This document shows positions 7,868 through 56,543 of a stretch of 64,000 nt of DNA, piece after piece. Source of the stretch: Thermoleophilaceae bacterium (GTDB lineage Bacteria > Actinomycetota > Thermoleophilia > Solirubrobacterales > Thermoleophilaceae). Under the pieces are notes generated by a model. It had not been told where the DNA came from, ran no database searches, and saw only the letters and a list, made by a program, of their open reading frames with translations. Position 1 is the stretch's first letter. Each line of letters begins with the position of its first letter. The translations under genes and the position numbers were made by a program. Location: assembly GCA_025928265.1 (NCBI GenBank), contig JAICJV010000002.1, positions 1 through 64,000 on the forward strand, given 5' to 3'.

Positions 7868-8022
7868 GACACACATCTGCCGAATCCCCGGCGCACGTCG
7901 GCGGGGAACGGGGGAACCACTGTGGCCCAGGCCACTTGGGGCGAATCGCCGCCGTAGTGCGGCGTAGCGCATCTCTTTCAGCGCGAGCCCGTCAGCTCAC
8001 CTCGTAGGCAGGCGAAAGAGAA
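7868..8022 (+). ncRNA. c-di-AMP riboswitch (ydaO-yuaA class)
   Basis: The 5' leader of the cell-wall hydrolase gene has the recognisable conserved blocks of the ydaO class in order: GCCGAATCC near 7879, GGGGAACGGGGGAACCA at 7902-7918, TGGGGCGAATC near 7938 and the 3' block of GAGCCCGTCAGCTCACCTCGTAGGC at 7984-8008. The class binds cyclic di-AMP and often controls peptidoglycan hydrolase and potassium transport genes, so the downstream NlpC/P60-like gene is a typical target. Boundaries are approximate. A likely -10 (TATACAT) lies near 7851. No T-tract terminator is seen, so control may be at translation initiation or by a non-canonical terminator. Confidence 0.88.
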
Positions 8023-8032
8023 AGGGTGTGCG

Positions 8033-55467: not shown

Positions 55468-55872
55468 CTACCGCAGCACGGACTCGATGGCCGCACGCAC
55501 CACGGCTTCGTCCTCCTGGCCGCTGGCGCCCGAGGCTCCCATCGCCCCGGCCGGCTCGCCGTCGATCTCGATCGGCAGCCCGCCGATCTGCGGCGTGTAG
55601 CGGCCGTGCGTGGCCGTGCTGATCGCGCCGGCGAAGGCGATCAGGTCCTTCGCCTTGTCGCCCTGTGCGGAGCTGGGCGCCCTGTACGCAGCAGCGGTCC
55701 ACGCTTTCCCGAGCGCAACCTCCGGGGTGATCCAGTCGGCGCCGTCCATGCGGGCGATCGCCACCACGTGGCCGGCGGCGTCCACCACCGCGAACGCCAG
55801 CTTCAGGTCCTGGTTGCGCGCCTCGGCCTCGGCGGCGTCGATCAGGCGCCGGGCTGTGTCGATCGTGAGCAT
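55468..55872 (-). CDS. GlcG/HbpS-type heme-binding family protein
   Basis: A 134-residue member of the GlcG/HbpS family. Conserved parts are LTIDTARRLIDAAEAEARNQDLKLAFAVVDAAGHVVAIARMDGA, then ALGKAWTAAAYRAPSS, then GGLPIEIDGEPAGAMGASGASGQEDEAVVRAA (the Gly-rich C-terminal signature). HbpS binds heme and takes part in redox sensing; GlcG lies in glycolate operons. No signal peptide is present, so this copy is cytoplasmic. Its ATG overlaps the stop of the rhodanese-CBS gene (TGATG), which shows translational coupling. Confidence 0.85.
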   Translation of the reverse strand: MLTIDTARRLIDAAEAEARNQDLKLAFAVVDAAGHVVAIARMDGADWITPEVALGKAWTAAAYRAPSSAQGDKAKDLIAFAGAISTATHGRYTPQIGGLPIEIDGEPAGAMGASGASGQEDEAVVRAAIESVLR

Positions 55873-56543
55873 CAGCCCCCCAGTGCCCGCCGTTTGACGA
55901 CTCCAATCAGCTTCCCCTCGGGCGTCGAGACGAGGGCGGTCTTCAGCCCCTTGTCGTCGAGCTTCTGCCGCAGCTCGTGCACGTCCTGGTCGGGACGCAC
56001 CGTCGAGGGCCCCGGGTCCATCAGCGCCTCTGCCGTGCCCGAGCCCGCGTCCTCGATCGCGCTGCGGCGCAGGCGGCCGAGGATCGTGCCGTCGTTCGCG
56101 AGCACGATGGCGAATCCGTACGGCGACGCCTCGATCCGCTCGCGCACCTCGGTCGCGTCATCGGACAGCGCGCAGGTGACCACATCGCTCTGCGCGAAGT
56201 GGCCGACGCGCTTGTCCCCCGCGCGCTCGCCCTCGACGGGCTGCATGCGGGCGAGCCAGTCGACCTTGCCCATGACGTAGTCGTACACGTGCTCGAAGCC
56301 GAGCGTTTCGAGCCGGCACGCGGCTCGCGGACTGAGGTCTCAGAGGGCGTCCCAGCAGTACACGACCACCGGGTCGCTGCGCGAGAGCTGCGCCGTGGTG
56401 TCGGCCTCCAGCTCCTTCAGCGGGATGTTGATCGCGCCTGGAAGGTGGAGCTCGCGGTAGTCCTCCTCGGGGAGCACCTCCACGAGCTGCGCGCTGTCCG
56501 CGAGCAGTGGGACGAGCTCTTCGTATCCGATCGGCTCCGACAT
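55872..56543 (-). CDS. rhodanese-CBS protein with in-frame TGA (candidate selenoprotein)
   Basis: Read through one TGA at 56340-56342, this is a 223-residue protein. Residues 1-100 are a rhodanese domain (PIGYEELVPLLADSAQLVEV, DYRELHLPGAINIPLKEL, VVVYCWDAL-TGA-DLSPRAACRLETLGF) with the catalytic-type Cys at 63 and TGA at 68. Residues about 110-223 hold two CBS motifs (VVTCALSDDATEVRERIE and STVRPDQDVHELRQKL). Both halves are in the same frame with normal codon use. As far as I know, related actinobacterial proteins have Cys at the TGA position. A perfect hairpin begins 12 nt after the TGA. Alternatives are a nonsense mutation or a base error. Confidence 0.65.
56309..56327 (-). promoter_or_regulatory. 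SECIS-like hairpin after the in-frame TGA
   Basis: On the minus strand CGAGCCG pairs perfectly with CGGCTCG around the 5-nt loop CGTGC, with G as the second loop base. The stem starts 12 nt and the loop 19 nt after the TGA, as expected for bacterial SECIS elements, which lie within the coding region. Confidence 0.45.

Follow-up and report, generated by a model that had tools for sequence, protein, structure and literature searches.

A reading frame on the reverse strand of the Thermoleophilaceae contig analysed here (the window; 64,000 nt) joins a rhodanese domain to a pair of CBS domains and contains a TGA codon well before its end. This raises the question whether the codon terminates translation or is decoded as selenocysteine (Sec), as an earlier note made from the letters alone had proposed. 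The comparative evidence is strong, and we conclude that the UGA at 56342-56340 is very probably decoded as Sec, yielding a 223-residue selenoprotein predicted to consist of a rhodanese domain and a CBS pair.

The interrupted rhodanese-CBS reading frame

The start codon ATG at 56543, the in-frame TGA and the terminal TGA at 55874-55872 were all verified directly in the sequence (Table 1). The rhodanese and CBS halves share one frame, and the TGA at 56342-56340 is its sole interruption, so that the extent and frame given in the earlier note were confirmed on the letters. In the read-through protein (P0001), both domains scored above their Pfam cut-offs: the Rhodanese-like domain PF00581 at 33-118 (E 1e-11, 45.6 bits, gathering threshold 22.2) and one repeat of the CBS domain PF00571 at 192-240 (E 1.3e-9, 38.7 bits, gathering threshold 24). 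A second CBS repeat is visible in the structure model and in the matches to CBS pairs in the PDB.

Table 1 Features of the rhodanese-CBS locus within the window.
Feature	Position	Strand	Remarks
Predicted selenoprotein gene, rhodanese domain and CBS pair	55872..56543	-	223 aa, one of them Sec (U68); terminal TGA 55874-55872
In-frame UGA, predicted Sec68 codon	56340..56342	-	five residues past rhodanese Cys63 (YC-WDAL-U-DLSPRAA); TGA in 75 distinct homologues, TGC/TGT in 20
Cys63 codon, Cys of the rhodanese catalytic loop	56355..56357	-	position computed from the TGA
Putative bSECIS hairpin, CGAGCCG(CGTGC)CGGCTCG	56309..56327	-	inside the coding sequence; 7 bp, 5-nt loop
Separate CBS-domain ORF expected from standard gene callers	55872..56288	-	GTG start, 138 aa; artefact of taking UGA as a stop
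HbpS-like (PF03928) gene	55468..55872	-	ATG overlaps the selenoprotein stop codon

AlphaFold2, run on 69 sequences, gave a model of the read-through product in which one rhodanese domain is joined to a CBS pair (pLDDT 95). The UGA falls in the rhodanese active-site loop, right before a conserved helix (DxSxRAA) that belongs to the same domain. Conservation runs unbroken across the UGA in the aligned homologues, with Cys63, Sec68, Asp69 and Arg73 among the invariant residues. The rhodanese motif had been thought to continue over the TGA; the conservation on both sides and the single rhodanese domain found by Pfam and in the model bear this out. The CBS half resembles CBS pairs in the PDB, several of which were solved with adenine nucleotides.

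The UGA might instead be an ordinary stop separating two genes, one for a truncated rhodanese and one for a CBS protein, whose translation is either independent or coupled. The RefSeq annotation of Pseudonocardia plasmids is drawn in this manner: it cuts the gene exactly at the UGA into two coding sequences (L215, NZ_AP018921.1, 6992-7660; L216, NZ_CP053565.1, 438-1103). Such a boundary would lie within the rhodanese active-site loop, ahead of the conserved DxSxRAA helix, whereas the Cys-containing homologues form one open frame. The UGA copies, moreover, have a conserved hairpin specific to them (see below), and we consider two separate genes highly improbable.

The ATG of the HbpS-like gene overlaps the stop codon of the selenoprotein gene, and the two are probably co-translated. 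In the sister genome of the same genus, a 134-aa gene follows at the equivalent place. Elsewhere in the window, at 7868-8025 on the forward strand, lies a c-di-AMP riboswitch (ydaO/yuaA, RF00379, 86.5 bits), the one feature of the window to reach the Rfam gathering threshold.

Conservation of the UGA codon and of the hairpin

When the read-through protein was searched against 101 related genomes, 11 full-length homologues emerged, counting that of the window. In ten of them precisely this codon is TGA, and in the remaining one (G087) it is TGT. The set was widened by a class-wide profile search and by a search of named genomes, in which a scan with a single sequence gave no matches and an alignment query afterwards returned 80 loci. 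This query turns Sec into Cys and its ratio of UGA to Cys forms is thus biased; the fairer sample is the class-wide profile search, where nearly all full-length matches have UGA. Among 95 distinct full-length homologues, the codon in the Sec68 column is TGA in 75 and TGC or TGT in 20, with no other codon present. The Cys expected at this column in related proteins agrees with the alignment, which holds only Cys or UGA. An in-frame UGA that aligns with Cys and recurs in several organisms, the pattern by which bacterial selenoproteins are recognised, is what we find here.

The family occurs in Actinomycetota, Chloroflexota, Thermomicrobiota and Dormibacterota, and only three changes between Sec and Cys are required on a maximum-likelihood tree built from 69 members. 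Hosts of the UGA form include isolates of Actinomycetospora, Pseudonocardia, Micromonospora and Haloechinothrix, as well as plasmids finished as complete sequences; Actinomycetospora cinnamomea DSM 45771 and Pseudonocardia autotrophica are two such carriers. Some genomes have two UGA-form copies (L171, around 273 on the reverse and 6192 on the forward strand; L136 and L137, from the same MAG).

This distribution bears on the reading of the TGA as a nonsense mutation of a Cys codon, either real, in a pseudogene, or false, through a sequencing or assembly error. The codon is one base away from TGC and TGT, and the assembly of the window (G000) is a fragmented MAG, 73% complete. For the family, however, this reading is refuted by the recurrence of the TGA, which is found at the corresponding codon of 75 distinct genes belonging to several phyla; as the UGA form is present in cultured isolates and complete plasmids, neither assembly error nor a decaying gene offers an explanation. 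The protein is also conserved on either side of the TGA and the hairpin is retained only alongside it, which leaves a mutation or error scarcely credible.

The stem of this hairpin begins 12 nt after the TGA and its loop 19 nt after it. The earlier description of a perfect 7-bp stem with the 5-nt loop CGTGC proved accurate in coordinates, pairing, loop and spacing. Bacterial SECIS elements are expected to have a G as the first or second nucleotide of the loop, with a U after it, and a distance of 16-37 nt between UGA and loop (PMC13188914). With its loop CGTGC, 19 nt from the UGA, the window hairpin agrees with this rule, in keeping with the placement claimed for it. An Rfam search with the hairpin returned no matching family and no known SECIS family.

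The hairpin region is ungapped, so that UGA and Cys genes could be compared base by base. All six inner pairs are intact in 72 of the 75 UGA genes, compared with one of the 20 Cys genes. At the third codon positions +20, +23, +29 and +32, the entropy is 0.35, 0, 0.10 and 0 bits in the UGA genes versus 1.14, 1.14, 0.97 and 0.93 bits in the Cys genes. These positions are thus nearly frozen in the former and free in the latter, although the Cys set is smaller and taxonomically narrower. For the pair +20/+28, a compensatory change from C-G to U-A was observed in five genes; pairing amounted to 95.8%, against 17-46% in controls with slid partners. The hairpin was thus kept specifically with the UGA codon.

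Selenocysteine machinery in the host genomes

The MAG containing the window encodes a tRNA-Sec (selC, 68.7 bits), called by ARAGORN as tRNA-SeC with the anticodon tca and identical over 93/93 nt to that of a genome of the same genus (G001). It also has selD (380 bits, a score above the cut-off). Both genes sit on other contigs, outside the window. Rfam detected no tRNA-Sec in the window, and for tRNA-Sec and selA the earlier statement that the machinery is not there was correct. selA and selB were not found in the whole 73%-complete MAG, so that a check of the genome for the Sec machinery succeeded for tRNA-Sec and selD and failed for these two genes. In the same-genus genome, the UGA gene, selA and selB side by side, selC and selD are all present; a search of the window MAG for the flanks of its selA-selB pair gave only short, scattered matches. 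The alpha subunit of formate dehydrogenase, as a second Sec gene, was not found in the window MAG or in the sister genome.

Across the 101 relatives, SelA or a strong selC was detected in 9 of the 10 genomes with a UGA gene and in 27 of the 91 others. The exception (G046), a 96%-complete bin with a UGA copy, yielded no SelA and no strong selC; the copy may lie on a misbinned contig or may have been acquired without its machinery. In 50 further genomes, strong SelA matches were present in 26/30 UGA hosts and 13/20 Cys hosts, a contrast not significant alone (p = 0.09) because many Cys-form Nonomuraea, Microbispora and Streptomyces have SelA. SelA was present in all seven UGA-form named isolates checked.

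A non-standard tRNA that reads the UGA as Cys or some other residue, with no selenium involved, would fit with Cys as the sole substitute at the UGA column and with the failure to find selA and selB in the window MAG. The same MAG, however, encodes selD along with a canonical tRNA-Sec, the UGA copies conserve a SECIS-type hairpin, SelA is encoded in most UGA-bearing genomes, and the very same gene terminates with TGA as an ordinary stop. Together, these observations make such a tRNA very unlikely. In the decoding as Sec that we favour, tRNA-Sec and SelB would insert the residue at the UGA, directed by the hairpin downstream.

Relation to known families and possible function

Sec68 lies five residues after the rhodanese Cys and not in its place. 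Five forms of rhodanese selenoprotein appear in a 2026 catalogue, namely UxxS, UxxG, CxU, UxxG and UxxxxU (PMC13188914); the combination of CxxxxU and a CBS pair is absent from the list, and nowhere does that review mention CBS. Forms 1, 2 and 4 (UxxS, UxxG; PMC13188914) share the rhodanese fold and are likewise predicted Sec proteins, but the Sec is placed differently in their motifs. The rhodanese-related (seleno)protein NF041203 (form 3, CxU) resembles the window protein in that Cys is retained and Sec added nearby. Its Sec, however, follows two residues after the Cys instead of five and its 126-position model is without CBS domains; at 17.4 bits (cut-off 115), the window protein is not a member. 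TsoB (NF045694, form 5) is a rhodanese with UxxxxU, a motif shared by two Chloroflexi homologues in which the Cys63 codon, as well as the +5 codon, is TGA (L191, 226-909; L195, 5023-5673). The 572-position TsoB model differs in having a DsbD-like part, whereas in the window protein position 0 is Cys and a CBS pair stands in for that part; at 20.6 bits (cut-off 805), the protein falls outside that family. The best structural match to the rhodanese half, and one of the best by sequence, is BH2092 (PDB 3nhv/3o3w). Its motif, YCWGPAC, places Cys residues where the window protein has Cys63 and Sec68, with the same spacing of five; BH2092 differs in having Cys instead of Sec and in lacking the CBS pair.

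In an NCBIfam scan, which takes in the published models of Haft and Gwadz 2023 and Haft and Tolstoy 2025, no model covered the rhodanese-CBS family and the rhodanese selenoprotein models scored far below cut-off. A literature search for selenoprotein, rhodanese and CBS domain, partial in its coverage and thus compatible with an earlier description, found no paper, and rhodanese is not mentioned in the deep-Sep paper. Since the same domain with a different Sec site is treated as a different subfamily in the selenoprotein literature (PMC9312934), the rhodanese-CBS family is apparently a new and undescribed rhodanese selenoprotein subfamily.

A gene for a DF-family (seleno)protein, MerB or a MerR/ArsR-type regulator ends 2-15 nt before the start of the rhodanese-CBS gene at many UGA loci, and at some MerA is encoded in the same cluster. 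Representative MerA and MerB neighbours were identified by NCBIfam models above cut-off. DF, MerA or MerB is encoded within ~6 kb at 25 of 54 UGA loci compared with 2 of 17 Cys loci (Fisher p 0.011, ignoring shared ancestry). On the P. autotrophica plasmid pPA12743CP, for example, the RefSeq order is MerR, alkylmercury lyase, a hypothetical gene, a "rhodanese-like" CDS and a "CBS domain" CDS, the last two being the rhodanese-CBS gene divided at its UGA. DF is the commonest neighbour; when present, its gene usually occurs once per genome and often adjoins the rhodanese-CBS gene. No in-frame UGA was found in the conserved domain of the DF-family neighbours, as a selenoprotein pair would require. 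The DF family (NF049942) and the Sao organometallic selenoproteins, of which SaoL is MerB-like, resemble the rhodanese-CBS family as selenium-linked families in soft-metal contexts, but are unrelated to it in sequence. The UGA copy of the 96%-complete bin (L124, G046:C280) adjoins MerB, DF, ArsR and a P-type ATPase. Upstream of the gene at three mer-linked Pseudonocardiaceae loci (L143, L146 and L151), a conserved protein of 170-210 aa is encoded, with a weak DUF1440 match below cut-off.

Beside the window copy there are no mer genes; it overlaps the HbpS-like gene instead, and no DF-family gene was found in its MAG. The mer link is also missing at many Chloroflexi loci. A role in mercury handling is weaker for the window copy than for the family because of this neighbour and the MAG without a DF-family gene, so that the mercury hypothesis applies at the level of the family.

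Cys63 and Sec68 may function as a pair, since Cys63 too is exchanged for Sec in the two Chloroflexi members. The most likely chemistry would then be that of a thiol/selenol pair, Cys63-x4-Sec68, in the active-site loop, which could form a selenenylsulfide or chelate soft electrophiles, for instance Hg(II), RHg+ or a (per)sulfide/(per)selenide; the CBS pair could sense an adenine nucleotide or dimerise the protein.

We give an even chance to a selenoprotein with a general function in thiol redox or in persulfide and sulfur trafficking, the mer link then reflecting stress genes that hitch-hike on the same islands. The rhodanese fold is nearest to BH2092 with its same Cys+5 motif, and the position of the window copy and many Chloroflexi copies away from mer genes, like the MAG without a DF gene, agrees with such a function. 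Hitch-hiking accounts less well for the many loci where 2-15 nt separate the gene start from a preceding DF or MerB gene, and for a DF gene that is usually single-copy and often adjacent. The function that we prefer for the family, handling of organomercurials or other soft metals, is suggested tentatively. Its most specific version is more doubtful: mercury or organomercury would be captured at a rhodanese site of the Cys-x4-Sec (or Sec-x4-Sec) type, which a nucleotide-sensing CBS pair gates, and passed on to MerB/MerA.

The family is widespread and includes the four culturable genera named above, in which these predictions can be tested. Its products are mis-predicted where RefSeq splits the gene in complete Pseudonocardia plasmids. 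The affinity of selenium for mercury far exceeds that of sulfur, and the neighbourhood raises the testable question whether selenium is part of the organomercurial defence in some soil bacteria. If true, the capture of mercury by the rhodanese site would represent a selenium-based step of bacterial mercury detoxification.
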